From positions 1 to 41,351 of IMG/VR virus record IMGVR_UViG_3300009011_000025: 41,351 bases of DNA. One strand, given 5' to 3'. Origin of the DNA: a virus. The notes below the pieces were generated by a model. That model was not told where the DNA came from. It made no database searches and saw only the letters and a list, made by a program, of their open reading frames with translations. Positions within the stretch are counted from its first letter, which is position 1, and every line of letters starts with the position of its first letter. Below are positions 1 through 38,628 of this stretch, piece after piece. Made by a program: the position numbers and the translations under genes.

Positions 1-16
1 AATGCCGCCTCACAGC

Positions 17-93
17 AGGCACGTAGCTCAGTTGGTTAGAGCACCACCTTGACATGGTGGGGGTCGTTGGTTCGAGTCCAATCGCGCCTACCA
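17..93 (+). tRNA. tRNA-Val (GAC)
   Basis: A 77-nt cloverleaf can be folded by eye. The acceptor stem begins AGGCACG and pairs with CGCGCCT, with one A-C mismatch. The anticodon arm is CCACC-TTGACAT-GGTGG, anticodon GAC, and the T arm is GTTGG-TTCGAGT-CCAAT. The CCA end is encoded. The 5' part is host DNA. The 3' part, from position 45, is the phage-borne copy that restored the gene on integration, so the tRNA should stay functional in the lysogen. Confidence 0.97.
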
Positions 94-202: not shown

Positions 203-1339
203 TCAGAACGCCAATTCGGCGCCCACCTCCAGATACTCGATCTTCTTTTCGTCGTGCCCCTCTTGATAGTGCTTCGTCATCTTCTCGTCCGCATGACCCA
301 TCAAAGCCTGAATGTATTCCTGCGGGAAATTTTGCTGTTCGTACAGCCACGCTCCTAAAGCGCGGATCTCGTGAAAAGTGGGGCGCTCGCCGGCCGGCAC
401 GTGGTCGTAAGCGTGTGCCGCATCCCGGGCCTTGCTGAACTCCTTGGTCAGGTAGTCCGGGGTCACTGACGTCCAGTGGTCCTTGGCGTCGATCTGTTCC
501 CGGCGCCGGGCTTTCGGCTTGTAGTGGATCAGGTACGGCGACACGATCGGCGACCGCAGGCACTCACCGACAACCTCGCGCAGCGCTGCGCCCATGGTGA
601 TCTTCAGGTGAACCGGGTTGTCGTAGCCCTGAGTCTTTCCGGGCGACACCGTCAGCGTGTTCTTATCCATGTCGACAGCCGACTTCAACCAAGTGACGAT
701 GTCGTCTCGGCGCTGAAGGCTGGCCAGTGCCAGGCGGATTGCACGCTTCAGCCAAGGCGGCGTGGTCGCGGCGGCGATGATCATTTTTAGTCCGTCGAGC
801 GTGTGCCGCTGGCGCTTCTTCTCCGCTTCCTTCTTCACGAGCGTCAGTTCGGCGTTGTTGCGCTCAGCCAGACCCTTGGCCACGGCAAAGGCGAAGATCT
901 GAACCCAGAGCCCGCGGTGCTTCGTGTAGGCGTTGTTGCTGAACTGGTCGAGGTATTCGGCCATTGCCAGCACATCCATCTGCCCGATCAGCCGATCACC
1001 CAGGTCCTGCCGGTACCGTTCAAGCTTGAATTTGATTTCCTCCAAGGTACGAACGGCGTAAGTTTTTTCTGGCAGCCATTCCTCTTCGAAGCGTTTCAGA
1101 AGGTTGCTCACGATCGGCAAGCGGTCGCCGGTCAGAAGGGCGAGCAGTGAACCGTCATCGACCACTAGTTCCGCGAATTTCAGGTTGGCGGCCCTGGCCA
1201 ACTTGATTGCCTCCTCCAACGGCCGGTTGATGCTGGTCATCACACCGGTGATGGGGTTGCGGTACCGCCAATACTTCCCGTTCGGGTAAAGGTTTGGCGG
1301 CAACTTCCTGTTTTGAAGCGTGCGCGGCCGGGCAGCCAT
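203..1339 (-). CDS. int: Site-specific tyrosine integrase
   Basis: This 378-residue tyrosine recombinase should insert the phage into tRNA-Val and, with its excisionase, remove it. The N-terminal 60 residues resemble an arm-site DNA-binding domain, followed by a core-binding SAM-like domain. The C-terminal catalytic domain shows Arg210/211 (LQRRDD), the HEIR box (His323, Arg326), His349 (LMGHA) and the nucleophile Tyr358 (KHYQ). Length is usual for phage integrases. The start codon shares one base with the stop of the upstream excisionase-like gene. Its position beside attL makes it the likely agent of this integration. A second recombinase at 16584 is unrelated in sequence. Confidence 0.95.
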   Translation of the reverse strand: MAARPRTLQNRKLPPNLYPNGKYWRYRNPITGVMTSINRPLEEAIKLARAANLKFAELVVDDGSLLALLTGDRLPIVSNLLKRFEEEWLPEKTYAVRTLEEIKFKLERYRQDLGDRLIGQMDVLAMAEYLDQFSNNAYTKHRGLWVQIFAFAVAKGLAERNNAELTLVKKEAEKKRQRHTLDGLKMIIAAATTPPWLKRAIRLALASLQRRDDIVTWLKSAVDMDKNTLTVSPGKTQGYDNPVHLKITMGAALREVVGECLRSPIVSPYLIHYKPKARRREQIDAKDHWTSVTPDYLTKEFSKARDAAHAYDHVPAGERPTFHEIRALGAWLYEQQNFPQEYIQALMGHADEKMTKHYQEGHDEKKIEYLEVGAELAF

Positions 1340-2790: not shown

Positions 2791-2846
2791 CGCCGTGGCC
2801 CCGAGTAGATGAGCCAGGCCATGTAGGCGAGGGCGGGGAGGATCAT
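2787..2846 (-). CDS. 19-residue hydrophobic micro-ORF
   Basis: A 20-codon frame (MILPALAYMAWL...) that begins in an ATGA overlap with the stop of the upstream gene and ends in an ATGA overlap with the methyltransferase start. The peptide is mostly hydrophobic, enough for a single membrane segment, and ends in Gly-Pro-Arg-Arg. The double overlap suggests real translation, or at least a coupling device that carries ribosomes to the methyltransferase. No homolog is recognised. Confidence 0.5.
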   Translation of the reverse strand: MILPALAYMAWLIYSGPRR

Positions 2847-3409
2847 GGCGTCACCTGCTGGCCGAGCAGCACATCGCTAACGACTTCCCAAAGCCGGGCT
2901 GGTGACCATTGAAAGCGGTCGAAGTCACTGTCAGGCGCCACACCGACACGGCAGGTTGAGTGAGCACCTTTCTGCCCCTCGTACATTTTCTGCATGATCG
3001 TTGCCACCCTGCCATCACCCTGCGGCTCGGTGCGGTGGTACTTGTAGGCTCCCTGTTTGTAGCTCTGTCCGGCGCGGATAACATTGTCGAAGAGGGCAAC
3101 CATGTCGGTTCGGCCATCCGGGACCCATGGGCGGCCGCCTTTCTCTGTCCTGGCTCCTTCGTGCAGATACATCACGTAGTCGCCTTCGTCCTTCCAGACA
3201 TCTGCGTACTCGATGTTGCGCTGCTCGCCAACCAATACGCGCGACACGAAGTCGAAGCGGTGGTCATGGATTGCCGAGTGCTCGAAGCAAGCCCGGCGCG
3301 GCAACTCAGGGTGCCAGACGTGCAGGCGCTGATTGCCCTGGAGCTGGACCTGCACAAAGCCGAGGCCGTGCAGGGTGATTTTGTCGGACATCACGTCATC
3401 GATGATCAT
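2843..3409 (-). CDS. Cupin-like phage protein
   Basis: A protein of 188 residues starting at MIID, chosen because its ATG overlaps the upstream stop (ATGA). It has a possible metal-binding patch, EHSAIHDHRFDF (HxHR), and a later YHR, set among short strands typical of a cupin barrel. The other protein of this operon, 4593-5165, shows the same HDH...YHR spacing, so the two may be related. No enzyme family is recognised. It sits in the minus-strand chain downstream of the DGR reverse transcriptase. Confidence 0.65.
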   Translation of the reverse strand: MIIDDVMSDKITLHGLGFVQVQLQGNQRLHVWHPELPRRACFEHSAIHDHRFDFVSRVLVGEQRNIEYADVWKDEGDYVMYLHEGARTEKGGRPWVPDGRTDMVALFDNVIRAGQSYKQGAYKYHRTEPQGDGRVATIMQKMYEGQKGAHSTCRVGVAPDSDFDRFQWSPARLWEVVSDVLLGQQVTP

Positions 3410-3843
3410 GGCGTTACCCTCCGTGCCCAGTGCACGTGCGGGCCGTCTTCCGTGTCGAAGATGCCAAGCAGAAACCATTCGGGCCCAGGCGACTTAGGGT
3501 CCCATCCGACGCATCCCTCGCAGCCGACCGTTCCATCCCAGTAAGGGTGCGAATCAAGATCCCGCTCCATGCTCCAATATCGAAGCTCCAGCCCCTGCTC
3601 AGCCAGCCACGCATGGTATGGGGCAGGATCCTCGGTTCCGCCAAAATCAGGGATGCCTTGATGCCACCACCAGCCGTTGTGGTCGCGCTTTACTTCCATA
3701 GGCCCGAAAGGTTTGGGGCTGTGCGTAGGGCACGGCGTCACCCAGATCACGTCGGAATAATCACCGCCGCCCGAGCTGAACTTCATCTGGCAGCCGCACT
3801 TGGCCGGTGCACCGTTTACGAACGTTATCTTTTCGTCAGGCAT
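3406..3843 (-). CDS. Hypothetical phage protein, Cys- and Trp-rich
   Basis: A 145-residue protein starting at MPDEKI behind an AGGA site. It is rich in Trp, His and Gly, with Cys pairs CGC near residue 17 and CEGC near 110 that could bind a metal. It has no signal peptide or membrane segment. Its stop overlaps the next start by ATGA, so it is co-translated with the cupin-like gene. It resembles the small uncharacterised proteins of Pseudomonas phage early regions; function unknown. Confidence 0.65.
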   Translation of the reverse strand: MPDEKITFVNGAPAKCGCQMKFSSGGGDYSDVIWVTPCPTHSPKPFGPMEVKRDHNGWWWHQGIPDFGGTEDPAPYHAWLAEQGLELRYWSMERDLDSHPYWDGTVGCEGCVGWDPKSPGPEWFLLGIFDTEDGPHVHWARRVTP

Positions 3844-3890
3844 GGGAAATCCTTTGCCGCTATAGCGGCTGACTTTGAAGGGGGAGGGAG

Positions 3891-4070
3891 TTACGGGTAG
3901 TTGGTGCTGATGCGCTTGGCGATGGCTTCGAGCTGCTCGGCCATTCCCCACATGTCGTTGTTGTCGCGGCGGGACACTACGGCGGCGCGCTGGACGTTGC
4001 GGTCGATCAGGATCTTCGCTGCCAGCAAAATCAGCCAGGCCTCGAACTTGCGCCGGAAGAACCGCTTCAT
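3891..4070 (-). CDS. 59-residue basic hypothetical protein
   Basis: A short protein with a very basic start (MKRFFRRKFE), then a hydrophobic stretch WLILLAAKILI, then a polar helix. This suits a small amphipathic or membrane-associated protein. The ATG overlaps the stop of the upstream gene (ATGA), which is the main evidence that it is real. It belongs to the translationally coupled chain between the reverse transcriptase and the methyltransferase. Function unknown. Confidence 0.65.
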   Translation of the reverse strand: MKRFFRRKFEAWLILLAAKILIDRNVQRAAVVSRRDNNDMWGMAEQLEAIAKRISTNYP

Positions 4071-4261
4071 GGTTTTTCACCTGCGAGAGTGATGAACTCT
4101 CGGTTGAACGCGACGACCGTCTTGTAATGCGTTCGGCCTTCCCAGATCGGCACAAGCCTGTAGCAGTCGCCCCAGTGACTGAAGCCTGGGCGTCGGCAAA
4201 CAACCTTGTTGGTCGAGTACAGCGAGCCGTCACGCTTCCTTCTGAAGTCGGCCATGGTCAT
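4067..4261 (-). CDS. 64-residue hypothetical protein
   Basis: A small protein starting MTMADF, with a possible second start at the third codon. It is basic, rich in aromatic residues and contains single Cys residues (VVCRRPGF, GDCYRLV). Both ends overlap neighbouring genes by ATGA, which supports translation in this operon. No family is recognised. Confidence 0.65.
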   Translation of the reverse strand: MTMADFRRKRDGSLYSTNKVVCRRPGFSHWGDCYRLVPIWEGRTHYKTVVAFNREFITLAGEKP

Positions 4262-4578
4262 TCACCCTGGTTGGCCAGCATGTTCAGGCGCATGCCCGAT
4301 GTGCCGGGGATTTCGCGGGATGGCGCGACCATATCGAGCGAGTCCTCGCTATGGTGCTGAGCGGTAAGCTCATCAATCCGCTGATCCGCTGCGTTCAGGC
4401 GCAGCTGCAGGGCGTCACGTTCGGCCTTCATCCGATTGAAGGTTTCGCCGAGCACGTACTGCACTGGGCGGTGACCGCATTCACAGTCCGGCCAAGGGTT
4501 GTCCTCTGCCCAGGTCCTGCCGTCACCTTGACCAGTCTCGCAGGCCGGGCCGAGGTAAATCACTTTTGGTTCGCTCAC
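4258..4578 (-). CDS. 106-residue hypothetical protein with coiled coil
   Basis: The start is taken as GTG (VSEPKV), because AGAGGA lies 8 nt upstream and a longer frame would run into the previous gene. The N-terminal half has Cys residues (PACETG, PDCECGH) that could form a small zinc knuckle. The second half, from about residue 55, is a heptad-like helix (MKAERDALQLRLNAADQRID). Such proteins are common in phage early operons and are often near nucleic-acid enzymes; no function can be assigned. Confidence 0.7.
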   Translation of the reverse strand: MSEPKVIYLGPACETGQGDGRTWAEDNPWPDCECGHRPVQYVLGETFNRMKAERDALQLRLNAADQRIDELTAQHHSEDSLDMVAPSREIPGTSGMRLNMLANQGE

Positions 4579-4592
4579 CTTGAAAGTCCTCT

Positions 4593-5165
4593 TCAATTGT
4601 CCGTGCCTGTGTAGGTGCGCCAAGGAACCTTGACACCGTTGACCAGAAACCCCCAGTCACCACGCCACTTGCTGGTGATGAAGAGGGTGATGACGCCTTC
4701 GTGGAATACCTTGTCGATGCGGTGATACTCGCCGTGCAGCAGCTGCGCGGTGTCGCCCGGTTGGCGGTCGATGTACTCGGTGGCCTGGGCGTTGGCTGGA
4801 ACATTAAGTCCGAACAGCGCAGGGTCTTCGTGATCGAGCAGTCGCTGCTCCGTGTAACAGCCACGCAGGATGATCGTCCTCGCGTTCCATGGGTGGTCAT
4901 GCAGATCCCGGTCTTCGTCCGGCCGCATGATGTGGTGGATGCGGAACGACCACGGGAACCACCAAAGCGCCGGCTTGTGCGTCTCCCGGCTGTAGGGGTT
5001 GAACAGCCACCAGCGACCCATGTACATCTCGGTGCCGTCGGCGGACATGATGTGCAGATACGGGGTTCGCTTGGCGCGGGCGATCAGCCAGTCGGCGATA
5101 GCCGGTTGTGCAAGCAGCTTGGCGACCAGGCGCCAGAAGAGATTGATCATTCCGAAGATCCTCAT
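4593..5165 (-). CDS. Cupin-like phage protein directly downstream of the DGR RT
   Basis: A 190-residue protein starting at MRIFGM, where ATG overlaps the RT stop (ATGA); MINLFW five codons on is an alternative start. After a hydrophobic N-terminal helix comes a probable beta-barrel with HDHPW near residue 105 and GEYHRI near 155, plus Trp-rich strands. This is a cupin-type metal site pattern. The coupling to the RT means it is made with the retroelement, but nothing shows that it takes part in mutagenesis. It may share a fold with 2843-3409. Confidence 0.7.
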   Translation of the reverse strand: MRIFGMINLFWRLVAKLLAQPAIADWLIARAKRTPYLHIMSADGTEMYMGRWWLFNPYSRETHKPALWWFPWSFRIHHIMRPDEDRDLHDHPWNARTIILRGCYTEQRLLDHEDPALFGLNVPANAQATEYIDRQPGDTAQLLHGEYHRIDKVFHEGVITLFITSKWRGDWGFLVNGVKVPWRTYTGTDN

Positions 5166-6322
5166 TTCCTTGGATAGGTTTTTGTCAGTGCGCCATTGAC
5201 TGTGTGGCCGCGCTTCAGGACGACGCGGGCCAGTGCTGCCCGGTCTTTCTCGCTGTGGCTGGCTTGGCTGAGCAAGCCGAAGTAACTGTTTGCGGTTTCG
5301 CGAAGATCCTCGGCGGGCGCCGCGGCTGTTCGCTTCAATGCCTGGGCCATCGATCGCTTCCGGGTTGAACGCCGCCAAGGCTTGATGACGTGGCCAACGA
5401 AGTCGAGACCTCGATCCACTGGTTGTAGGATCGTCTTTGTTGGGTTCAGTTTGGCGCCGAGGCTGGGCAGGAATGCTTCGACCTCTGCCAGCCAGGCGTT
5501 GAGTTGTTGCGGTGACTCATGCAGGAACACGAAGTCATCGACGTAGCGGACGTAATGCTTGGCGCCGAGCTTGTGCTTGGCGAACTGGTCCAGTGCGTCG
5601 AGGTAGACGTTGGCGAAGAACTGCGACGACAGGTTGCCGATCGGCAGTCCGAGGTGCGCAGGTTGGGCGGTTAGGCGTTTGTGCTGCGGCACCCGATTGA
5701 ACAGATGGGCCGGGCTGCGCACCTCGTAGTCTTCTCGAGGGTCGTGCATCAGGATCTGTTCGGCGAGTTCCAGCCACCATGGCTCAGTGATCTTGGCGGC
5801 CAACTGCTTGCGCAGAACCTCTTTGTCGATCGCGACGAAGAAGTTGGCCAGGTCGCACTTGAGGTAGAAGAGCGGCTTCGACCAGTTCTGGCTGGCGCTG
5901 CGGATCTTCGCCTCAAGCCGTGTTGCGGCGTACAACGTGCCGCGCCCGGGAATGCATGCGCAACTGTCCGCTATGAAGCTGGCGTAGAAGCGCGGTGCCA
6001 CACGGTTGTACAGCAGGTGATGAACGACGCGGTCCCGGAAAGCGGCAGCCCAAACCTCGCGGGCTTTCGGTCGAGTGACCACGAAGCATATCGAGCGGCC
6101 TGGCCGGTATGAGCCGGCTATCAGGTCGTCGTGAAGCTTGATCAGGTTGCTCTCCAAGTCCATTTCGAAAGCCAGCGCGCTGGCGCTGTTGCGCTTCGTG
6201 CGGCGGCAGTCGTAATAGGCCTGAACAAGTTCGCTGAACGGGTAGGGACCAACAGTCGAATCTGCGGACGGGGCGGACACGGAGCTCGTTGTTCTTGTCG
6301 TTGTTGTTCTGATTGCCATCAT
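5162..6322 (-). CDS. Diversity-generating retroelement reverse transcriptase
   Basis: A 386-residue reverse transcriptase that should copy the template-repeat RNA into adenine-mutated cDNA. Motif A is CDLANFF (Asp157) and the catalytic box is YVDD (260-263). The motif GLPIGNLSSQ (225-234) has the IGxxxSQ form that marks DGR enzymes, instead of the QGxxxSP of retrons and group II introns. There is no maturase, HNH or protease domain. The ATG-ATG start lies inside the template repeat, read in another frame, and no clear Shine-Dalgarno precedes it. An in-frame GTG at 6280 is the only later candidate before the conserved region. It is coupled to the cupin-like gene downstream. Confidence 0.95.
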   Translation of the reverse strand: MMAIRTTTTRTTSSVSAPSADSTVGPYPFSELVQAYYDCRRTKRNSASALAFEMDLESNLIKLHDDLIAGSYRPGRSICFVVTRPKAREVWAAAFRDRVVHHLLYNRVAPRFYASFIADSCACIPGRGTLYAATRLEAKIRSASQNWSKPLFYLKCDLANFFVAIDKEVLRKQLAAKITEPWWLELAEQILMHDPREDYEVRSPAHLFNRVPQHKRLTAQPAHLGLPIGNLSSQFFANVYLDALDQFAKHKLGAKHYVRYVDDFVFLHESPQQLNAWLAEVEAFLPSLGAKLNPTKTILQPVDRGLDFVGHVIKPWRRSTRKRSMAQALKRTAAAPAEDLRETANSYFGLLSQASHSEKDRAALARVVLKRGHTVNGALTKTYPRK

Positions 6323-6362
6323 CGAAGTTCATGTTGAATGCGTTGTTGGCGGAGCGCTGCGA
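6262..6362 (-). repeat. DGR template repeat (TR)
   Basis: A 101-nt copy of the ends of both target genes. In the target reading frame it has nine AAC codons and one AAT, the usual DGR design, because mutating the adenines of AAC gives many residues but no stop. All 10 differences to VR1 and all 13 to VR2 fall on adenines of this strand. The last 30 nt or so (coding-strand 3' end) are identical in all copies and correspond to the initiation of mutagenic homing region. With VR2 the identity continues 4 nt further, to 6258. The 171 nt between TR and avd (6363-6533) hold no gene I can support and probably form the 5' part of the template RNA. Confidence 0.96.
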
Positions 6363-6533
6363 CCTATCGTGCTATCTACGTCGCCAAGCCGAAGGCAGAG
6401 CCGATCAGCGAGGAAACTGCGCGAGACCTGCACGGACGCTTTAGACCGTCGGTATCTCTGATGCGCATGGCGGTGACCCAGAGGTCAGCGGCACGACCAG
6501 ATTCAATTCGCACAGACCTGAAAGCCGTAACTC

Positions 6534-6890
6534 TCAGGTGGCGGGCGCGGTTGGGGTGGAGCGTTTCCAGGCGTTGGCCTGTTTGCCAATCGAGGTGGTG
6601 ACCTCTATTGCATTGGCGTGCTGCGGAACGCTGATGAATCGACTCTCTTTGAAAAGCCGCATCAGGAACTCGATCACCTGGACCTTCTCGACCAGCAAGG
6701 TCAGGTGTGGGCGCTTGTCAGGCGTCGAGTTGGCCCGAGCGATCAACATCAGCACGTCGATGCACTCATCGATGACGCGCTTCCCGAGCGACTGCTTCAG
6801 GTCTCGGGGAATGTTACGAGTGAGGTTCGTGGCCATCTGGAGCAGGCCCAGTGAAACTTTGTAGATCTGCAAATCCGTGTGCATTGCCAT
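6534..6890 (-). CDS. avd: Accessory variability determinant, Avd-type four-helix protein
   Basis: A 118-residue, all-helical, basic protein with the pattern of the bAvd / four-helix-bundle family (related to proteins from 23S rRNA intervening sequences). Helices run at about residues 3-24, 28-52, 60-85 and 95-108. In the Bordetella phage DGR, Avd forms a pentameric barrel that binds the RT and template RNA and is needed for mutagenic homing. The place between target gene and TR/RT is the usual one. The Thr/Pro/Ala tail is probably disordered. Confidence 0.9.
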   Translation of the reverse strand: MAMHTDLQIYKVSLGLLQMATNLTRNIPRDLKQSLGKRVIDECIDVLMLIARANSTPDKRPHLTLLVEKVQVIEFLMRLFKESRFISVPQHANAIEVTTSIGKQANAWKRSTPTAPAT

Positions 6891-6912
6891 TAGGCTCGCT
6901 CTCCAAGAGCAA

Positions 6913-6930
6913 CCGGCCGCAAGCGGCCGG
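6913..6930 (-). other. Hairpin 3' of VR1
   Basis: A perfect inverted repeat CCGGCCG-CAAG-CGGCCGG (7-bp stem, 4-nt loop) 30 nt beyond the 3' end of VR1, between the stop of target 1 and the avd start. No T-run follows on either strand, so it is not a typical terminator. In the Bordetella phage DGR a hairpin of similar size just after VR is needed for target recognition, so this is a good candidate for the same role. Confidence 0.6.
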
Positions 6931-6944
6931 ATTAAATAAGCGAA

Positions 6945-7565
6945 TTAATCAATCAATTGACTGCGGACGGGGCGGACACGGAGCTCGTTGTGCTTGACGT
7001 CGTTGCCCTGATTGCCATCAGCGAAGTACATGTTGAACGCGTAGTAGGCGGAGCGCTGCGAACTCGACCAGTACCAGGTTGGCTTGAAGGCTTCGGCACC
7101 ACCAGCTTGGAAGGCTTCCAGCGTGGTCTGCACTGGAGATTCCTCGGTGTGCAGCAGGCCGACAGGCTCGCTGTTCGGGTTGTCACCGCTGCGACCGTAC
7201 TGCCAGTTCGCTTCGACGGTCGGTTTGAAGTGGCGGTATTGCAGCTCCTGCACGTCGCGGGCCGGGATCGCCCAGTCAGTGAAGCCGCCGATATCCAAAG
7301 CCAGCACCTGCTGTGCCAACTCGCTACCAGCGGCCGCCATCGCCTCGGTGTTGGCGCGGCTGTTGGTGAAGCTGTCAGCGCCTTCGATCTTCTCGCCGTA
7401 TTCGCCCCAGGCACCGCTCAGTTCGCGCTCGGCGCCGGCGGTGATGTTCAGGTAGCGCTTGCCAGTGTCCGGGTCACGGGTAATGCCGCTGAAGAACCCG
7501 CCGCCGAACGGCTGGCCGATTTCCGGGATGGTCACTGCTGGTGCTGCTTTCTCAACTGCGGACAT
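6945..7565 (-). CDS. DGR target protein 1 (DUF1566-like C-type lectin fold)
   Basis: A 206-residue protein starting at MSAVEK, behind AGAGGAAAG 5-12 nt upstream. The C-terminal 110 residues (DWAIPARDVQEL ... WYWSSSQRSA ... ELRVRPVR) have the look of the DUF1566/FGE-type C-type lectin fold, the scaffold used by most DGR targets. The last 35 residues are encoded by VR1. Variable positions give Tyr-Tyr, Tyr, Ala, Gly, Asp, Val and His where the template has Asn or Asp. There is no signal peptide. The ligand is unknown. It follows target 2 on the same strand and precedes avd. Confidence 0.92.
   Translation of the reverse strand: MSAVEKAAPAVTIPEIGQPFGGGFFSGITRDPDTGKRYLNITAGAERELSGAWGEYGEKIEGADSFTNSRANTEAMAAAGSELAQQVLALDIGGFTDWAIPARDVQELQYRHFKPTVEANWQYGRSGDNPNSEPVGLLHTEESPVQTTLEAFQAGGAEAFKPTWYWSSSQRSAYYAFNMYFADGNQGNDVKHNELRVRPVRSQLID
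6961..7061 (-). repeat. DGR variable repeat 1 (VR1)
   Basis: 101 nt, colinear with TR, no gaps. There are ten mismatches and all are at adenines of the template strand. They alter codons 1, 2, 6, 8, 13, 15, 16 and 18 of the Asn-rich block and include one silent GCA to GCG change. The last 30 nt before the target stop region match TR exactly. Past 7061 VR1 and VR2 still match each other but not TR, which fixes the boundary. Confidence 0.95.
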
Positions 7566-7590
7566 GGTCTTTCCTCTTTTCGAAGGCAAC

Positions 7591-7610
7591 AAAAAAGGCG
7601 CTGCTGCGCC
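7591..7610 (-). terminator. Hairpin with U-tract after target 2 (3' of VR2)
   Basis: On the minus strand GGCGC-AGCA-GCGCC is followed by TTTTTT. It lies between the target 2 stop and the target 1 start, 45 nt beyond VR2. It can act as a partial terminator between the two target genes. It also occupies the place of the post-VR hairpin of the Bordetella DGR, so it may have a second role in homing. Confidence 0.65.
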
Positions 7611-7641
7611 CGGTGCCGATCAAGAACGAATGATTGAAGGA

Positions 7642-8250
7642 TTAAATAAAGAATCTGCGGACGGGGCGGACACGGAGCTCGTTGTCCTTGGCGTAGTCGT
7701 CCTGAAGGCCATCATCGAAGTACATGAAGAATGCGCCGTAGGCGGAGCGCTGCGAACTCGACCAGTACCAGGTGTCCTTCGCGAACAGTTCAGGCACGTT
7801 CACCCAGCAGTGGTACAGCTCTGCGCAGGCGGGCAGATAGAAGTCATTGTGACCATCAGCCTGGTATTCAACGCAGGCGTCTGCGGCTGGATGATCGTCG
7901 CGATCGCCGCCGTGTAGTGCCTTGGTATTAGCGCGGCCATCGGTCTTGCTCGTGGCGCCCGACTCTTTGCCACGACCGCCCCACTCGTGTGTGCCGATGT
8001 CTTCCTTTGCGATGATCAGGTAGTGCGCCGGGACATCGCCACGCGCCGCCACCAGTCCACCGTTGAAGCCGCCTTGGCCTGGCCACTCAGCACCCAGCGC
8101 TGGCACCGAGTAAGCGGTGATCGGTTGAACGTTGGCCGCCGGCGGCAGCACCAAGGCAAACGTGCTGGCCAGTGCGAGCTTGGCCAGCGAAGACGCAGGC
8201 ATCTTGATCGTTGCGTCGCCGTGCTTCAGGGTGATCATTTCGGGTTTCAT
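7642..8250 (-). CDS. DGR target protein 2 (DUF1566-like C-type lectin fold)
   Basis: A 202-residue protein, start MKPEMI behind TGAGGTAA. Residues about 20-40 (SSLAKLALASTFALVLPPAA) are hydrophobic and could be a membrane or signal-like segment, though it begins unusually far in. The remainder is a DUF1566-like domain (GTHEWGGRG, DFYLPACAELYHCW, TWYWSSSQRSA) ending in the VR2-coded ELRVRPVRRF tail. Outside the WYWSSSQRSA-VR block it differs strongly from target 1, so the two are old paralogs fed by one template. No partner or ligand can be named. Confidence 0.92.
   Translation of the reverse strand: MKPEMITLKHGDATIKMPASSLAKLALASTFALVLPPAANVQPITAYSVPALGAEWPGQGGFNGGLVAARGDVPAHYLIIAKEDIGTHEWGGRGKESGATSKTDGRANTKALHGGDRDDHPAADACVEYQADGHNDFYLPACAELYHCWVNVPELFAKDTWYWSSSQRSAYGAFFMYFDDGLQDDYAKDNELRVRPVRRFFI
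7655..7755 (-). repeat. DGR variable repeat 2 (VR2)
   Basis: 101 nt colinear with TR. Thirteen mismatches, all at template adenines, change nine Asn codons and one Asp codon to Tyr, Gly, Phe, Tyr, Leu, Asp, Asp, Tyr, Ala and Asp. No stop codon arises. Identity to TR runs 4 nt further at the 3' end (to 7651) than for VR1. VR2 and VR1 have different substitutions at most shared sites, which points to independent homing events. Confidence 0.95.
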
Positions 8251-8361
8251 GCGGTTACCTCAGGTAGGCGCCGCCCTCCGTGGCCGGATGCGGCAGTGGT
8301 AATTTTGGTTGTGGTGAGGTATTACGGATGACCGGCAAGGGGCCGGGTCAAGGAGTTCGAC

Positions 8362-8559
8362 ATGAGTCAGCAAGCCCAAATAGATGCCTTGGAACACCTG
8401 CTTATTGCTGTATTGAAGAAAAGCCCAATGACGCTGCCAACCGAATCTATTTTCGAGTCGGCACATGGGTCCATCTTTGGAAGCGACGGCCCGCCCGGTA
8501 CAACTGAAAAAACCGAAGCAGCAAGTTACTTGCAGCATCTGAAATTGAAGTTGAGCTAA
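8362..8559 (+). CDS. 65-residue hypothetical protein, isolated on plus strand
   Basis: A small helical protein (MSQQAQIDALEHLLIAVLKK...) with AAGGAG 8 nt before the ATG. It is the only plus-strand gene in the left arm and stands between target 2 and the minus-strand gene at 8556, whose 3' end overlaps its own by 4 nt. A short divergent intergenic gap (8251-8361) must hold its promoter. Similar short proteins with this start occur as uncharacterised ORFs in Pseudomonas. Function unknown. Confidence 0.7.
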   Translation: MSQQAQIDALEHLLIAVLKKSPMTLPTESIFESAHGSIFGSDGPPGTTEKTEAASYLQHLKLKLS

Positions 8560-8876
8560 TCGTCGAGGCTGCGCAGTGCTTCGCGGTTGTAGGCCAGCTC
8601 CAACTTTCGCGACATGTTTTCACTGATCGTGATTTCGTGTCGCGACATGTTGGCAAAGCGGGCTGATTCTTCGGTCGGCGCGGCGGCGAGGTTGATCATG
8701 AAAGTCGTTACCGTCTCCTGCCATTCCTCGAAGTCGTGACGCTCGCCCAACACCTCAAGTGCATCAGCAAGCGCCTTCGACACAATCAGTGTGCGCTTCT
8801 CGGCGCCGATCCGATCCAGCAGGGCACGCTCCTTGGCGCGCTTGTCCTTCTGAATGTCCGCGTTGCTCTTGGCCAT
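8556..8876 (-). CDS. Hypothetical protein, highly charged helical
   Basis: A 106-residue protein starting MAKSNA (GAGGCAGG upstream). The first 30 residues are strongly charged (DIQKDKRAKERALLDR), and the rest is predicted helical with no motif. The composition suits a DNA-associated or scaffold-like protein. Conserved unknowns of this type lie in Pseudomonas prophage early arms. No function is assigned. Confidence 0.7.
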   Translation of the reverse strand: MAKSNADIQKDKRAKERALLDRIGAEKRTLIVSKALADALEVLGERHDFEEWQETVTTFMINLAAAPTEESARFANMSRHEITISENMSRKLELAYNREALRSLDD

Positions 8877-8957
8877 GGCCTGCCTCTTCAATTCCGTGGG
8901 CCGGTAGATCCAGCCATGTCTGTCGTCGGCGCTGGCGCACCTGGTTGCTGAGTCGCT

Positions 8958-9266
8958 TCATGATGTGAACTTGAAGCCGTTTTCCCGAGCGATGAGCCGG
9001 GCGCGCTTGGCTTCCATGCCGCACTCTTTAGCGGCCTTGGCAACGGGTGTGCCGGCCTCGGCTAACTCCTTCAGCCTGGGCGCTATCTTGTCCCTCTCTA
9101 CACGCAGCTTGTTGCTGTGAGAGGTGCCGAACATGGCCGCCTTTTCACCACTGACGCCCGGCGCAATTTCCTGCACCGGTTTGCCTGCGCCGAAGTACTG
9201 CTCCAGCTGCTGATTCAAGTTCGCGACGATTGAGTCTCGCGGGTTGGGCATTGGTACGCCGATCAT
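8958..9266 (-). CDS. Hypothetical protein with possible HTH tail
   Basis: A 102-residue protein beginning MIGVPM; its ATG overlaps the stop of the gene upstream. The C-terminal 50 residues (IAPRLKELAEAGTPVAKAAKECGMEAKRARLIARENGFKF) fit a helix-turn-helix of the kind found in small phage regulators and terminase-like N-termini. This is a pattern reading only. It is co-translated with 9263-9553. Confidence 0.7.
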   Translation of the reverse strand: MIGVPMPNPRDSIVANLNQQLEQYFGAGKPVQEIAPGVSGEKAAMFGTSHSNKLRVERDKIAPRLKELAEAGTPVAKAAKECGMEAKRARLIARENGFKFTS

Positions 9267-9553
9267 TTGCCCCAGCCCTCGATGTTCACCTTCACACCGT
9301 CGGCCCGCGCTTCCAGCACCTGCGCCAGATTGATTGCTGCCCGCCAGGTGAAGCGGAACCCCTTCACTTTGCCGGTGGATCGCTCGATGACGTGATAGGC
9401 GTTGTCGCCCTTGGTGACGACCTGGAAGCGAACAGTGCTTACCGGTGCAGTCTTGCCGATCATTGCGTAGAACTCGGCGGTGGCCGCCGTTGCGCGGATG
9501 GTCAGGGCAATGTTGCCTTCGACTCGCGCTTGCATCAGTGGGTGCATTTGCAT
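9263..9553 (-). CDS. Conserved hypothetical phage protein
   Basis: A 96-residue protein starting MQMHPL behind GAGGGAT. Beta-rich segments (VRFQVVTKGDNAYHVIERSTGKVKGFRFTW) are followed by a helix. I recognise it only as a type of uncharacterised protein found in Pseudomonas phages. Its stop overlaps the next start by ATGA. Confidence 0.7.
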   Translation of the reverse strand: MQMHPLMQARVEGNIALTIRATAATAEFYAMIGKTAPVSTVRFQVVTKGDNAYHVIERSTGKVKGFRFTWRAAINLAQVLEARADGVKVNIEGWGK

Positions 9554-9655
9554 GGCTGATCCCTCGGTGTGGGGTGCGTGTATTCGTCAGCACTCGGCCG
9601 GTCTGCTGGTTGCCGTTGGGCGCAGGGGAGAGTGCTGACGAGTAAAGGCAGGCGT

Positions 9656-9681
9656 AAAAAAGCCCGATCGGAACCGGGCTT
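9656..9681 (-). terminator. Terminator downstream of the 9858-11792 minus-strand genes
   Basis: Stem AAGCCCG/CGGGCTT with an 8-nt loop; on the minus strand it is followed by TTTTTA. It separates the LuxR-to-67-residue gene group from the genes below 9553. The region 9554-9857 (about 300 nt) otherwise holds no gene I can support and probably contains a promoter for the lower group. Confidence 0.8.
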
Positions 9682-9857
9682 TACCACTTATGTTTCGAGC
9701 CTACTGAGCCATGAGGGCCGGGTAGGTATCTGAAGTTCACATGGCTGCCAATCCTCCGTGCCGGGTTAGTTGGTGAGTGCAGGTGGCCGGTATAAGCCGG
9801 GGCTTCGTCCGCATCCCGCTGCCCACTCAGTGAATGGGCAGAAGTGATGCGTGCCGG

Positions 9858-10061
9858 TCAGAACGGTTTTTCGTCAAGCGCCGCGTTGCCTTTATCGGTG
9901 AGGGTCACCTTCCCGGCGGCAACATGAGCGAAGCCTTCACGCTCAAGATCTGCCCAGAGCCTCGGGCCGACCGGCTCGTGGTCTTCGTTAAAGTGATCCA
10001 GCGTTGCGTTACCGGCGGTATTGCGAATGTACTGAGCTGCTGTTTTGAGGATTGGCGTCAC
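9858..10061 (-). CDS. 67-residue hypothetical protein, winged-helix-like
   Basis: The start is GTG (VTPILK), overlapping the stop of the upstream gene as GTGA, with AAGGAG 13 nt before it. The sequence (LDHFNEDHEPVGPRLWADLEREGF, then VTLTDKGNAAL) reads like a small winged-helix domain with its wing near residues 45-60. It may be a DNA-binding accessory protein. Similar unknowns occur in Pseudomonas prophages. Confidence 0.7.
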   Translation of the reverse strand: MTPILKTAAQYIRNTAGNATLDHFNEDHEPVGPRLWADLEREGFAHVAAGKVTLTDKGNAALDEKPF

Positions 10062-10225
10062 TTCTCTTTCTCCTTGCCTACCATCAGAACCATCAAGAGC
10101 AACGCGACCAGCACCAGGTCGCCAACCATTGAGAGGATCCGGCTTGCTGAGTCGACGAAGACGACACCGCCAGCGAGCCCGTAGGCTGCCAGCGAGCGCG
10201 CTTTGTTGCTGAACCTGCCGAACAT
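10058..10225 (-). CDS. 55-residue single-pass membrane protein
   Basis: The protein starts MFGRFS, then has a Gly/Ala-rich segment and a strong membrane segment (LVLVALLLMVLMV) followed by a charged KEKEK tail. The tail codons double as the ribosome site of the next gene. It follows the TerB-like gene by 2 nt, so it is probably co-transcribed with it. TerB proteins often act next to small membrane partners; that link is inference here. Confidence 0.65.
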   Translation of the reverse strand: MFGRFSNKARSLAAYGLAGGVVFVDSASRILSMVGDLVLVALLLMVLMVGKEKEK

Positions 10226-10227
10226 GA

Positions 10228-10665
10228 CTACAGGTAGTCTTTGAGGTTGAGGTTCATGATCTTGGCGGCCTTTTCCAGCACTGCCATTTCTGCTGGTTCG
10301 ATCTCGCCGTCGGCTTCTGCCACGGTGAGCATGAAGTTCAGGACGGTGGCCGCGTCGTCGACGCTGTGGGCCAGGTCCTTCAGTTCCTTTTCGGCGTTCT
10401 GGCGGATGATGCGGGGGCCACCGTCGTTGAAGTCGGCCTTGGCGCGGTCGATGGTATTGCTCAGCTCGGCGCCGAAGCCTTTCAGGGCGGCCGAGTTGTT
10501 GATCAGCTTCTCGATCTTTTCGAGCTCTTCCTTTTCGATGTCGCCATCAGCGGAAGCGACATAGAACACGCCGTAGACCGAAGCCTGCATCAGATCGCGG
10601 TTGGTCATCACGGCCAGGGCCTGACGGGCTTCGCCGGATTTCTTGCCAAACAGTTTGCCGAACAT
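10228..10665 (-). CDS. TerB-like (tellurite resistance family) protein
   Basis: A 145-residue protein starting MFGKLF. It has two TerB-type helical repeats with acidic loops of the form ASADGDIEKEELEKI (about 40-54) and AEADGEIEPAEMAVL (about 117-131), the putative divalent-metal-binding sites of the TerB/DjlA fold. In phages this family is linked to membrane stress or superinfection responses, but no activity is proved. It lies just upstream of a small membrane protein gene. Confidence 0.85.
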   Translation of the reverse strand: MFGKLFGKKSGEARQALAVMTNRDLMQASVYGVFYVASADGDIEKEELEKIEKLINNSAALKGFGAELSNTIDRAKADFNDGGPRIIRQNAEKELKDLAHSVDDAATVLNFMLTVAEADGEIEPAEMAVLEKAAKIMNLNLKDYL

Positions 10666-10735
10666 GGTGATTCCTCTGGGTTGGGGTTGCATCCCGATGC
10701 ACCCTGTTGCCAAGGTGCAGCAGTGATGCTGTCCA

Positions 10736-10987
10736 TCAGCGGCGCGGTGCGTCTCGCTGAGGTCCACCCGGTGCCGGCCCGGCCACATCGGCGGCACTCA
10801 AGCCCGGCCCGAGAATCTTGATGCGGCCCTCGTCGAACCACTCCGACTTCTGCACCTCGTTAATGCCCTGGCGGATCGGAGGCGACAGGCAGTACTGATC
10901 GCAACCAGTGAGGTACTGTGCGCGGCCGATGATGGTTCCGTAGAAGCCGGTGATCTTGTCTTCTGCTTTCTGTCCGAGTTCGATCAT
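10736..10987 (-). CDS. 83-residue conserved phage hypothetical
   Basis: Starts MIELGQ with AAAGGAAA upstream. The sequence (GQKAEDKITGFYGTIIGRAQYLTGCDQYCL...) has a beta-rich SH3-like start, common in small phage and prophage proteins of unknown role. The C-terminus is Pro/Gly/Arg-rich. No further assignment is possible. A 70-nt leader without a gene separates it from the TerB-like gene. Confidence 0.75.
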   Translation of the reverse strand: MIELGQKAEDKITGFYGTIIGRAQYLTGCDQYCLSPPIRQGINEVQKSEWFDEGRIKILGPGLSAADVAGPAPGGPQRDAPRR

Positions 10988-11008
10988 GATTTTTCCTTTC
11001 TGGTTGAG

Positions 11009-11398
11009 TTATGCGGCTTCAAGCGTTTCGGAGCGGCGGGTGATTCGTATCTGGGCAATCCGAACCGAAGGTGGTCGACGGTCACGGCGAGCGGGTTCGA
11101 CTGACTGGATGTTTGCTACGGCGTTCATGGCCATGAGCGCAGCCAGAACAAAGCACATCGGGGAGATGATCTGCCGGCGCATTGCCTCGGCGACCAGGGC
11201 GGCCCGGCGGGTTACGCCGAGCTTGAACATTGCGTTGGTGAGGCGTTTCGCAACGGTGCTCGGCGCTATGCCGGCTTCCCGTGCTATTTCCTTCGCGGTC
11301 AGCCCCAAGGCAACCCACAACAGGAACTGAAGCTCTCGCGGCGCCAGGCCGCGTCCGAGGTGACCCTTCCATGCGCCATTTGAGATTTCAGTTTCCAT
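11009..11398 (-). CDS. LuxR-type HTH protein with C-terminal hydrophobic segment (copy 2)
   Basis: A 129-residue protein; the start METEIS is chosen for GGGAG 8 nt upstream. Residues about 15-65 (LAPRELQFLLWVALGLTAKEIAREAGIAPSTVAKRLTNAMFKLGV) are a GerE/LuxR HTH. A hydrophobic stretch (PMCFVLAALMAMNAVA) at about 82-97 could be a membrane anchor. There is no sensor domain. It is a paralog of the next gene upstream (11448-11792) and shares a repeated leader with it. It probably regulates lysogenic-arm genes, perhaps from the membrane; this is inference. Confidence 0.85.
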   Translation of the reverse strand: METEISNGAWKGHLGRGLAPRELQFLLWVALGLTAKEIAREAGIAPSTVAKRLTNAMFKLGVTRRAALVAEAMRRQIISPMCFVLAALMAMNAVANIQSVEPARRDRRPPSVRIAQIRITRRSETLEAA

Positions 11399-11447
11399 AG
11401 TTGTTACTCCCGGTAGTTTTCCCAATTCCTGTTGTCGCCAGGCTTCA

Positions 11448-11792
11448 CTAACTGAGGTGCTGAATACGTCGATCGAGCACTCTTCGTTCAGGGCGAAACG
11501 CCTGATCGTCGATCATTGAGTGAATGGCTATCACCGCAAGCACGACACAGACCGGGCAAATGATCTGACGCTTCATAGCCTCTGCAATCATTGCTGACTG
11601 CCTGTGTACGCCGAGCTTGAACATCACACTGGAAAGCCTTTTGGCTACGCTGCTTGGGGCAAGCCCGAAGTCCTTTGCGATTTCTTTTGCCGTAAGTCCC
11701 TGGGCAACCAAAAGAAGGAATTGAATTTCTCGGGGCGCTAATCCACGACCGAGAAACCCTTGCCAATCGCCGCTGATGATTGTCTCTGCCAT
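11448..11792 (-). CDS. LuxR-type HTH protein with C-terminal hydrophobic segment (copy 1)
   Basis: A 114-residue paralog of 11009-11398, with the same layout: GRGLAPREIQFLLLVAQGLTA opening, LuxR recognition helix (SSVAKRLSSVMFKLGV), then PVCVVLAVIAIHSM as a possible membrane segment. It starts at MAETII behind CGGGAG. It is the first gene of the minus-strand transcript from the promoter at 12046. Tandem small LuxR-like genes in this position look like a recent duplication. Confidence 0.85.
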   Translation of the reverse strand: MAETIISGDWQGFLGRGLAPREIQFLLLVAQGLTAKEIAKDFGLAPSSVAKRLSSVMFKLGVHRQSAMIAEAMKRQIICPVCVVLAVIAIHSMIDDQAFRPERRVLDRRIQHLS

Positions 11793-12045
11793 CGTCGTGA
11801 CTCCCGGTTGTTTTCCCAATGCACCCGTCCAACCAGGTGCATCAGTGAAACTTTCCGCGTCCCTTCGGCGCTGCTGGCGCGGTACGGGCTCGTTCAAGTT
11901 GTTTGTCCGACCGCGACTCAGTCCGCCGGATAACTGTTTGCGGTGCTTTACGCTGCACACCCGGGTCAGTTGCCAACCCTCTGAACCGTTGAGGCCGGTT
12001 CATCGCTGCCTTCCATCTGGCCGGTTGTTATCCGGCGATGAACAA

Positions 12046-12074
12046 ACAATACGTTTGCGAATTAAAACGGTCAA
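12046..12074 (-). promoter_or_regulatory. Promoter for the leftward accessory operon
   Basis: On the minus strand TTGACC, a 17-nt spacer and TATTGT form a near-consensus sigma-70 promoter, start point about 12039. A broken inverted repeat (TTAAAA ... TTTTAA with GCGAA flanks) covers the -35 region and may be an operator. A leader of about 250 nt (11793-12040) separates it from the first LuxR-like gene. I see no gene in that leader. Confidence 0.7.
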
Positions 12075-12113
12075 CACTTTTTAATGCGAAAGCGAATAGA
12101 TTTTTGTGGGGAT

Positions 12114-12142
12114 GAAAAAAATCCCCGCTTGTCGGCGGGGAT
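12114..12142 (-). terminator. Terminator after the repressor gene
   Basis: On the minus strand ATCCCCGC-CGACAA-GCGGGGAT is followed by TTTTTT. It begins 40 nt past the repressor stop and just precedes the promoter at 12046, insulating repressor transcription from the accessory operon. Confidence 0.9.
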
Positions 12143-12182
12143 ATTGGATTGGAGGATGGGGGCAGACTGTGGCGTTAGGCCG

Positions 12183-12824
12183 CTACAAAAACGAGGTGGG
12201 GTACTTCACGTCGACCACGCGGCCGATGATTTCTACCGATTCATCCATTACGAGCATCTGGTAATCCGGATTAAGCGGCTTCAAGTACTCGACTCCAGCA
12301 TCACGCACGTACTGCTTCAAAGTCTTCTCGCCATCGGTCCGAAGCCTTGCAATATAGAACTTACCACTGACCAGATCGAACCCTTCAGGCTTGATCAACA
12401 CTCGCATACCTGGCGTAAAACCATTCCCTTGAACGGGGGTCATGGAGTCACCCTGGACCTCAAGCCAATAGCCGTTCGGCCCAGCATTTACGTCAGATGC
12501 GATCCTTTCGTACGGCTGTCCATTATCGCAAGACTCCGTCCACACACCAGCAGCTACCCAGCTAATCAAAGGATACTCCTTGGCTTCCTTGTAGGGTTGC
12601 GCAACAGATAGCACATTCCCGTGAGCAGGACCAAACAGCAACCATTCAGGTGTGACGCTAAGCGCGCGGGCGAGCTTTTCAAGTGTGGCCTTTCTTGGCG
12701 TACTGCTATCACCGTTCAAAATTCGATGAATCGTTGGCTGGGGCACGCCCGAACGGCGTCCAAGCTCGTTTTCCGATAGATCCTTTTCCAGCATTTTTGT
12801 GCGCAGCCGCACTGCGATCGTCAT
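12183..12824 (-). CDS. cI: CI-type repressor with S24 self-cleavage domain
   Basis: A 213-residue repressor that should hold the prophage silent. An HTH_3 domain spans about residues 5-62 (ENELGRRSGVPQPTIHRIL recognition region). A LexA/CI-type peptidase S24 domain follows: cleavage bond Ala92-Gly93 (VAAGVW), Ser127 in GDSM and Lys170 in TLKQY. The catalytic set is complete, so RecA-stimulated autocleavage on DNA damage is expected. The start MTIAVR is taken because the HTH begins there; only a weak ribosome site is visible. It is divergent from the Cro-like gene, with about 100 nt of operator DNA between. Confidence 0.93.
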   Translation of the reverse strand: MTIAVRLRTKMLEKDLSENELGRRSGVPQPTIHRILNGDSSTPRKATLEKLARALSVTPEWLLFGPAHGNVLSVAQPYKEAKEYPLISWVAAGVWTESCDNGQPYERIASDVNAGPNGYWLEVQGDSMTPVQGNGFTPGMRVLIKPEGFDLVSGKFYIARLRTDGEKTLKQYVRDAGVEYLKPLNPDYQMLVMDESVEIIGRVVDVKYPTSFL

Positions 12825-12861
12825 TTGTTCGACCCGGCGTATTAAAGGAGGTCGAAGTGTA

Positions 12862-12890
12862 TTGCCTGTTGTAATTCGGTTGCGTATTAT
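12862..12890 (+). promoter_or_regulatory. Early rightward promoter PR in the repressor-Cro operator region
   Basis: TTGCCT, 17-nt spacer, TATTAT, on the plus strand, 33 nt before the Cro-like ATG. The -10 sits in the imperfect palindrome TGCGTATTATCGCA, and TTGTAAT / ATTACAA lie as an outer inverted pair at about 12869 and 12897. These are likely CI/Cro operator half-sites. The repressor promoter must face left from the same 99 nt, but I could not pick it out. Confidence 0.65.
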
Positions 12891-12923
12891 CGCAGATATT
12901 ACAAATCGCATTGGTAGGCCCTT

Positions 12924-13115
12924 ATGACCATTACAGAAATGCTGGCCGAGTTGGCGCAGCACGGCTGGAGCCAGGCTCGAATCGCCGAACAATGCAAGAC
13001 GACTCAGCCGACCATTTTCAGAATCACGAAAGGCGGAGGTGCCCGTTACGAAGTGGGTACGGCCATCGTGGCCCTTCATAAGAAGGTTCTGAAGGCCAAA
13101 AAGACCGCTGCGTAA
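12924..13115 (+). CDS. cro: Cro-like HTH protein
   Basis: A 63-residue protein with an HTH (WSQARIAEQCKTTQPTIFRI, about 15-34) and a basic tail (KKVLKAKKTAA). It is the first gene to the right of the divergent repressor, the typical place of Cro, where it would bind the same operators and favour lytic growth. The ribosome site is weak. The gap 13116-13285 holds the hairpin at 13228 and no gene. Confidence 0.85.
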   Translation: MTITEMLAELAQHGWSQARIAEQCKTTQPTIFRITKGGGARYEVGTAIVALHKKVLKAKKTAA

Positions 13116-37683: not shown

Positions 37684-38628
37684 ATGCACAGAATTGATGG
37701 GCCTGGCGCCACGGTTGATAACAAGTTCACTGACGGCGATCCGGTTGGCGGCATTCAGGCAACTCTTGTAACTGATGACTGGCTGAATGATGTCCAAGAA
37801 AACATCATGGCGGTGTTGGTAGCGGCGGCTGTTTCGCCGACGAAAGGGCGTTCGGCTGACTTGGTTGATGCTATTCGTTCGATTTCTCCGGGAGCTGTTG
37901 GCTCAGTTAGAAACGCGAAAATGTCTCTGGTCGCCGCCAGTGCAAGCGCGACATTTACATCTGATCAGGTTGTTGTGGCATCGTCACTTGGCGGTGCCAC
38001 TTACCGACTGAGCAGCTTCAGCAAGATCATCAATCTCGCCACAATCGGCGCTGGCGGTATGGATACCGGTAGCGCACCGCTCTCAGGGTTCGTCGGGCTG
38101 TATGCAATCTATAACCCTTCGAACGGCGCTTCTGCACTACTTGCAGTCAATGCAACAAGCGCGCTGCTGCCGAATGTTTACGGCGGTGCAAGTATGCCGG
38201 CTGGATACACTGCGTCTGCCCTAATAAGCGTATGGGGAACAAATGGGAGCGGTCAGTTTGTAATTGGGCTTCAGGTAGACCGCGAAATCAGCATCGCCAC
38301 AAACACTGTATTCACTACCACCACCGTACAAGCATCGCTGACATCGTTCTCAATTTCCGCAGTGGTTCCAAGAAACGCAGTTACATGCAGGGGTGATTAC
38401 ACCGTTGGATCTTCAGCGGCAAGTGCGGGCGCAAGCGCAGTTCTGTGCGGATCACCTATTGAAATTGGTCGCGTAGCTCAGGGGGGGACAAGTGCTACAG
38501 CCGGTGCAACTATGGTTTCATCTTTCCCGCATCTGCCAATTCTAACTGCGCAAACATTGTATTATCGCGGGTCAGTATCTGCTGGCACATATAACTTCGT
38601 TGTCAGCATTTCTTCTTATGTGTTCTGA
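37684..38628 (+). CDS. Tail fibre protein
   Basis: A 314-residue fibre. The N-terminal 75 residues (IDGPGATVDNKFTDGDPVGGIQATLVTDDWLNDVQENIMAVL) are the typical baseplate-binding end of Pseudomonas phage fibres. The remainder is Ser/Ala/Thr-rich beta shaft and tip without VR-like sequence, so this fibre is not a DGR target. The shaft DNA is A+T-richer than the tail genes, which suggests exchange of the receptor-binding part. Confidence 0.9.
   Translation: MHRIDGPGATVDNKFTDGDPVGGIQATLVTDDWLNDVQENIMAVLVAAAVSPTKGRSADLVDAIRSISPGAVGSVRNAKMSLVAASASATFTSDQVVVASSLGGATYRLSSFSKIINLATIGAGGMDTGSAPLSGFVGLYAIYNPSNGASALLAVNATSALLPNVYGGASMPAGYTASALISVWGTNGSGQFVIGLQVDREISIATNTVFTTTTVQASLTSFSISAVVPRNAVTCRGDYTVGSSAASAGASAVLCGSPIEIGRVAQGGTSATAGATMVSSFPHLPILTAQTLYYRGSVSAGTYNFVVSISSYVF

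Follow-up and report, generated by a model that had tools for sequence, protein, structure and literature searches.

DGRs of one reverse transcriptase clade lie in a predicted CI-repressed early operon of lambda-type prophages and rewrite small C-type-lectin-like proteins

The window analysed here, the full 41,351 nucleotides of the IMG/VR virus record IMGVR_UViG_3300009011_000025, carries a diversity-generating retroelement (DGR). Its two C-type-lectin-like targets (Lcl_C/DUF1566) share a strand with the integrase and repressor genes and are separated from the tail fibre by about 29 kb. The same left-arm placement recurs in phages and prophages whose DGR reverse transcriptase (RT) belongs to the same clade. 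We propose that in this clade a DGR located in a CI-repressed, pL-like operon diversifies small, soluble proteins that act early and inside the cell, an explanation that we hold with about as much doubt as confidence.

Results

A complete provirus with a two-target DGR

An attachment-site repeat of at least 76 nt, derived from tRNA-Val, starts at position 45 of the 41-kb window and recurs at 41229. Because these repeats bound the window at both ends, it contains a complete provirus (Table 1). Its tail module includes a sheath, and its right arm encodes a second tyrosine recombinase (16584-17864, plus strand, phrog_1); several relatives also carry a second tyrosine recombinase, on the opposite strand. 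At the head of the left operon, the adjacent minus-strand reading frames 11082-11372 and 11448-11960 are alike by eye, and the latter matches a phrog labelled sigma factor and LuxR-type regulators.

Table 1. Features of the window, by position
Feature	Positions	Strand	Evidence or remark
tRNA-Val	17..93	+	attachment-site repeat begins inside, at 45
Integrase, end of left arm	203..1339	-	Pfam Phage_integrase and Arm-DNA-bind_1
DGR RT	5162..6322	-	RVT_1 E 1e-16; phrog_1423 E 1e-118
Template repeat (TR)	6264..6361	-	30 adenines in 98 nt
RT-15 structured RNA (Rfam RF03018)	6360..6550	-	182 bits against gathering threshold 82; directly 5' of TR
Avd accessory protein	6534..6890	-	Pfam bAvd E 2.3e-11; phrog_3206 'Avd protein of DGR'
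GC hairpin	6913..6930	-	33 nt downstream of VR1
Target 1 (T1), 206 aa, Lcl_C/C-type-lectin-like	6945..7565	-	PF07603 E 6e-8, just under cut-off; phrog_4245
VR1	6963..7060	-	10 mismatches to TR, all at A
Target 2 (T2), 202 aa, Lcl_C/C-type-lectin-like	7642..8250	-	PF07603 E 3e-5, under cut-off; phrog_4245
VR2	7657..7754	-	13 mismatches to TR, all at A
T2 codons 5-34, beta-hairpin and amphipathic helix	8149..8238	-	AlphaFold secondary structure, orthologue alignment
Promoter-like site TTGACC-17-TATTGT, candidate pL	12046..12074	-	promoter scan
Operator-like palindrome OL-a	12047..12064	+	overlaps candidate -10 region
Operator-like palindrome OL-b	12082..12099	+	just upstream of candidate -35
Terminator-like hairpin with T tract, after repressor gene	12121..12142	-	sequence scan
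CI-like repressor (HTH and S24 peptidase)	12183..12824	-	Pfam HTH_3 and Peptidase_S24; start chosen by eye
Operator-like palindrome, CI-cro interval	12872..12889	+	motif match
Cro-like HTH gene, divergent from CI	12924..13115	+	weak HTH_3 match E 0.0017
Tail fibre without VR	37684..38628	+	phrog_11518 'tail fiber protein'

On the minus strand the cassette is transcribed in the order T2, T1, Avd, RT-15 RNA, TR and RT. The RT is of the retron/group II-like family and adjoins the repeats, as in other DGRs; the match of Avd to NF033474 falls below the curated cut-off. T1 starts with ATG, the alternative TTG at 7592 being less likely. Since the RT-15 RNA lies immediately 5' of the TR, Rfam RF03018 probably represents the 5' portion of the DGR template RNA in this clade. 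The RT start codon (6322) falls within the TR, so the template RNA and the RT message share sequence, and the N-terminal ∼20 residues of the RT are encoded within the TR, in another frame.

A GC hairpin with a GRNA loop 4-34 bp after the VR is a described feature of DGRs (PMC3240598). The hairpin behind VR1 has the loop CTTG, not GRNA, and is kept in 68 of 74 relatives against none of 80 TRs (background 8%). VR2 is followed by a shorter hairpin 47 nt downstream, and most third targets have none downstream. Upstream of T2 are a small antisense open reading frame (8362-8559, plus strand), present in just 2 of 80 relatives, and a GC-rich stretch, GCATCCGG...CGGAGGGCGGCGCC, that is conserved in many relatives.

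The differences between the TR and the VRs are adenine-specific. All 10 mismatches between the TR and VR1 in 98 nt, and all 13 between the TR and VR2, fall at TR adenines and none elsewhere. With 30 adenines in 98 positions, the probability of this outcome by chance is ∼7e-6 for VR1 and 2e-7 for VR2, and across 80 relatives the number of TR/VR mismatches outside adenines is near zero and usually zero. In one assembly, two prophages (L019 and L021) have the same sequence in the 400 nt preceding VR1 and in the 400 nt preceding VR2, yet the VRs themselves show 19 and 13 differences, every one at a TR adenine. No change at TR adenines was seen in the 15 further near-identical comparisons. These sequences carry the mark of an active DGR that has rewritten its targets recently in nature. 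The median dN/dS was 0.22 for the T1 body outside the VR, 1.40 for VR1, and 0.09 for the RT, indicating purifying selection outside the VR, with the T1 scaffold kept and its VR face varied.

A scan of the whole window on both strands found no third VR, the next-best match having 29 non-A mismatches as compared with 0. The tail fibre therefore has no VR, as the preliminary description had stated, and its placement of the targets outside the tail module, some 29 kb away, is borne out by the mapped DGR. An invertible tail-fibre segment was also considered and ruled out, as there are no long inverted repeats and the minus-strand gene in this region is an esterase. This gene, a GDSL-type lipase/esterase (38857-39555), adjoins the tail fibre and is transcribed opposite to the late genes.

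The left-arm placement recurs across the RT clade

The IMG/VR sample consisted of the 80 closest relatives of the RT, and the whole record was searched for the 45 of at least 38 kb. Cassette spacing is fixed in the 80 relatives: 74 of them have a VR at the T1 position, and 72 have one at the T2 position. In 44 of the 45 records (43 without contig wrap), the cassette is preceded at a distance of 0-15 kb by a CI-like repressor gene with an S24 domain in the same orientation. An integrase gene in that orientation follows within 12 kb in 38 records (wrap allowed; 33 without it), and in 4 of the exceptions the integrase is downstream on the other strand. When the 45 whole records were scanned for TR-like matches, no full-length VR was found in a tail module. 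All matches lay in the DGR arm except for fragments of 19 and 26 nt (G023 and G024) and a second cassette in G037; for G037 the analysis covered the complete cassette, at 1.2-7.8 kb. These scans, together with that of the window, rule out a tail VR, and a target in the tail module, the BPP-1-type arrangement, is found in neither the window nor these 45 records.

A third, remote VR is present in 18 of the 80 loci (L015, L016, L017, L033, L053 and others), where it lies 3.3-9.6 kb upstream on the same strand, and one prophage region (L156) holds four VR-bearing open reading frames.

The bacterial-genome set comprised the best 80 of 584 stretches, so the breadth across bacterial genomes is that of a sample; it contained 46 same-clade loci and 34 more distant ones. 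Among the 46, with RT identity of ∼58% or more, an integrase was found downstream in 26, CI upstream in 17, and both in 9, and in none of the 46 was CI in the other orientation. In the 34 more distant loci, an integrase was found downstream in 4 and CI upstream in 1, on contigs of which many are short and with HMMs that were built from close relatives and may lower the number of matches in distant loci. Hosts among the matches listed include Pseudomonas, Paraburkholderia, Janthinobacterium, Herbaspirillum, Undibacterium, Polaromonas, Ralstonia, and Achromobacter.

Annotated phages show the same pattern. Their RTs are 66-91% identical to that of the window, and the next RTs in the phage collection, among the matches listed, are at most 38% identical. 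The left-arm placement is shared by phages of Pseudomonas, Burkholderia, and Shewanella with RT identities of 66% or more: Cruim01, Haboob, phPA-G, Magia, and QDWS carry RT, Avd, and targets in the integrase arm, with the repressor, where in view, at the opposite end of that arm. The cassette of LPPA56 lies upstream of a recombinase on one strand, in a record that names few genes, and SC_8_H2H8 has a close DGR at 9.6-13 kb of a sparsely annotated record. In contrast, target, Avd, and RT lie among tail or virion genes in all six DGR phages with distant RTs (at most 38%) that were opened (Bise, BalMu-1, VHML, ACA1, phiARM81mr, and BPP-1), a sample made up of 5 of the 58 more distant phage records plus BPP-1. 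The placement in the clade is also the same across different tail modules, including the one with a sheath in the window, that of the myophage Magia, and others with minor tail proteins. From these sequence comparisons, we conclude that the left-arm location is a clade-wide habit.

The targets are small, lectin-type proteins that appear to be soluble

The targets are small, mostly 120-225 aa. Of 88 open reading frames picked at the genome loci, 83 do not exceed 225 aa, and the longest has 342 aa (some picks are in the wrong frame). The AlphaFold model of T2 (pLDDT 79.7) matches the C-terminal domain of Lcl (8q4e; Foldseek E 2.3e-3, prob 1.00), and a fold search with the T1 model (pLDDT 71) gave no match to solved folds, only noise. 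PADLOC reported no defence-gene match for either target.

The preliminary description had suggested that a hydrophobic segment might place T2 at the membrane, a suggestion that the analysis does not support. This stretch is predicted to form the helix of a beta-beta-alpha module (residues 5-34); the helix is amphipathic, and in orthologues it reads like TAERMIQLLAASLFVHALPP and carries E, R, K, and Q (alignments of 45 and 41 hand-picked sequences). The customary hydropathy cut-off is 1.6. A 19-residue mean at or above this value was reached in 3 of 72 T2-position, none of 18 third-target (T3), and 6 of 71 T1-position proteins and in 6 of 88 genome-locus picks, counts that rest on uncleaned picks including some wrong frames (for example, the T2 pick of L009 repeats T1). 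Membrane anchoring of T2 as a general case is ruled out by the charged orthologue helices and the mostly lower hydropathy. No clear signal peptide was seen by inspection in any target, and by hydropathy and inspection the targets lack the signal peptide, lipobox, or transmembrane segment that surface display would call for.

The properties of the targets also bear on the alternative that the left arm happens to encode components of the virion, such as accessory adhesins or decoration proteins, with the DGR serving adsorption or binding to the surroundings. In favour of a virion role, the target fold is also seen in phage proteins whose annotation is S74 or collagen tail-fibre-like, and in the lytic phage PMBT3 the homologue gp033 comes after gp032, a gene product with matches to virion structural and tail-fibre families; the virion-gene setting of all six distant DGRs points the same way. 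Against it, the targets are short, no tail-attachment module was seen in them, and they are encoded in an early-type operon, away from the late genes, at a position that stays constant while the tail modules differ. Target homologues also stand alone in lytic jumbo phages. One of these, PA5oct gp379, is surrounded by tiny genes and is without the 'ESI-MS/MS' note that 8 genes in the same 50 kb carry and that we take to mean detection by mass spectrometry. Weighing both sides, we consider a virion function unlikely and favour early intracellular action.

The left arm has a predicted lambda-like pL layout

In phage lambda, the CI gene and the pL operon are on one strand, yet CI keeps pL shut in the lysogen, and transcription from pL begins early in lytic growth. 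The preliminary description had concluded from the strand alone that the targets are transcribed in the lysogen, and the sequence behind CI does not support this, as a terminator-like hairpin is followed there by a candidate pL flanked by operator-like palindromes. This candidate is the sole minus-strand promoter-like match in positions 1-14000, in a scan that overall gave fewer sites than shuffled sequence (2 as compared with 3.6). The motif TAATNCG-N4-CGNATTA, with at most 2 mismatches, occurs 3 times in 41 kb (0.62 expected), with one copy in the CI-cro interval (12872) and two around the candidate promoter (12047 and 12082).

As this motif was taken from the same places that it was then used to score, a motif-free test was run, in which the best palindrome common to the CI-cro region and each left-arm interval was determined for the window and 43 relatives (G039 and G041 were left out). 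In 15 of the 44 records (4.4 expected), the post-CI interval was among the highest-scoring 10% of left-arm windows; in 29 it was not, and a perfect palindrome score of 24/24 was obtained in 5. The post-CI interval of the window itself ranked best, its palindrome scoring 22 as compared with a control maximum of 19. Terminator-like hairpins after CI were counted in 16 of 44 records, with the CI stop of the window misplaced in this count.

Pseudomonas phage D3 has the same layout. Its record marks three operators between cI and cro, and downstream of cI, behind a terminator-like hairpin, a TTGACA-17-CATACT promoter is flanked and overlapped by an operator-like site (2 mismatches) and a perfect ATGAG-N4-CTCAT. 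The first gene after this promoter, orf68, is a homologue of the targets (∼35% identity). We infer that the left arm of the window has a lambda-like pL layout of repressor, terminator, and operator-flanked promoter. This layout and the position of D3 orf68 behind such a promoter make CI-repressed, early-lytic expression of the targets the best-supported prediction from sequence.

An alternative is that the lysogen produces the targets and uses them at its surface or to exclude superinfecting phages. Left-arm genes such as lambda rexAB and P22 sieB are expressed in the lysogens of some phages, and in 15 of 44 CI-to-TR regions the CI stop is followed at 0.5-3.8 kb by the start of a further, remote target. 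No conserved local promoter was seen in 51 regions upstream of T2, so that possibility was rejected, and in most relatives another same-strand frame seems, by eye, to end shortly before T2; in the window a local promoter is possible because the antisense frame interrupts the upstream run. The terminator and candidate promoter between CI and the operon, the layout of D3, the lack of a clear signal peptide, and the amphipathic T2 helix nevertheless make this alternative improbable. The preliminary description had held that the DGR diversifies proteins for the lysogen rather than for adsorption. Part of this view survives: adsorption is not the default reading, since the targets lie outside the tail module in an arrangement that recurs, but expression in the lysogen is not supported.

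That the targets regulate the phage or rival prophages, for instance by binding repressors or antirepressors so that variation yields new immunity specificities, is very doubtful: they do lie at the head of or within the early-left operon, and the VapB antitoxin was a weak second Foldseek match to T2 (E 1.4, prob 0.47), but that match is not significant, so a VapB-like T2 N terminus was ruled out, no DNA-binding motif was found in the targets, and the VR sits on a lectin fold, the variable face of which usually binds proteins or glycans.

Discussion

We favour the explanation that this DGR clade diversifies early intracellular proteins from within a CI-repressed operon. According to this proposal, the DGR of a distinct RT clade has been built into the early-left (pL-like) operon of lambda-type prophages, where it would rewrite two, sometimes three or four, small soluble C-type-lectin-like proteins. 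CI is expected to repress the operon in the lysogen, with a switch-on at infection or induction and replication predicted to start near the targets. Once freed, the early-left promoter would have the targets, Avd, template RNA, and RT made together as replication begins. A DGR rebuilt in E. coli edited best near a replication origin and in outward orientation, according to the available part of that report (PMC12875486), and the left arm, beside the replication genes, may offer such an origin-near geometry.

The products would then act in the cytoplasm early in infection on a variable partner, most likely a component of host defence or of a competitor phage, and rewriting of the lectin surface would track that partner, the rewritten faces being selected for intracellular binding. 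Because the cassette of the window neighbours a methyltransferase and those of relatives neighbour restriction-alleviation and nuclease-inhibitor genes, counter-defence is our likeliest single guess for the role. More tentatively, the whole clade, in beta- and gammaproteobacterial prophages, may represent an antibody-like repertoire of early intracellular binders against strain-variable proteins of host defence or rival phages. In each cycle, a phage could rewrite two to four lectin-fold binders made minutes after entry, and D3 orf68 and PA5oct gp379 would represent this class of proteins in a fixed form.

If an RT clade does keep all of its targets in an early-type operon, then some phages use targeted hypermutation after entry into the cell. 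The clade has cultured members (Haboob, phPA-G, Magia, Cruim01, and QDWS, with D3 as the fixed form), so the timing, location, and partners of the targets are directly testable. Phage DGRs are mostly described as tail-adhesin machines in the portion of the literature available (Roux 2021, PMC8144416), and our search, which mostly left subscription papers outside its range, found no description of DGR targets as early-operon genes.

The DGR of Bordetella phage BPP-1 (mtd-avd-TR-brt) shares with that of the window the order of target, Avd, TR, and RT, the adenine-specific TR/VR differences, and a C-type-lectin-type target with a C-terminal VR. It differs in that mtd lies among virion genes, whereas the window has two small targets in the arm from CI to integrase, a TR that overlaps the start of the RT, and an RT-15 RNA 5' of the TR. 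The second annotated variable region of BPP-1, in the left-arm gene bbp36, was considered as a precedent and rejected, as it does not match the BPP-1 TR, with 12 non-A mismatches over the best 40 nt. This region (33229-33558 of the BPP-1 record, L143) is a short tandem repeat unrelated to the TR.

DGR targets of Legionella and Treponema are also lectin-type, and the accessible text of PMC8144416 describes them as surface-displayed; the targets of the window differ from them, as far as that text allows the comparison, in having no clear export signals. Gut prophages reported in 2025 carry second VRs near counter-defence genes such as methyltransferases, according to the available part of that study (PMC12629997). 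As described there, they resemble the window in having a VR far from the tail and near a methyltransferase, and they differ in that the second VR is away from the RT cassette and the DGRs target tail proteins, whereas the window has no tail VR. To the extent covered by that text, these second VRs hint independently at a counter-defence role.

A close counterpart is the DGR of Burkholderia phage Magia (genes 44-47 and 57), which has an RT of the same clade (68% identical) in the left arm and short lectin-fold targets, one of them beside the repressor end; it differs in that its targets are 120-126 aa. The available part of the Magia announcement proposes that genes 47 and 57 may be the targets, raises a role in adaptation or in host range, and does not discuss the operon. 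Phage D3 is like the window in encoding a target homologue, orf68, in the pL position behind CI-operator-like sites and differs in that it does not appear in the 60 listed entries of a set of 67 phage records whose RTs are related. D3 orf68 is apparently a fixed, non-diversified form of the proteins that the DGR of the window rewrites.
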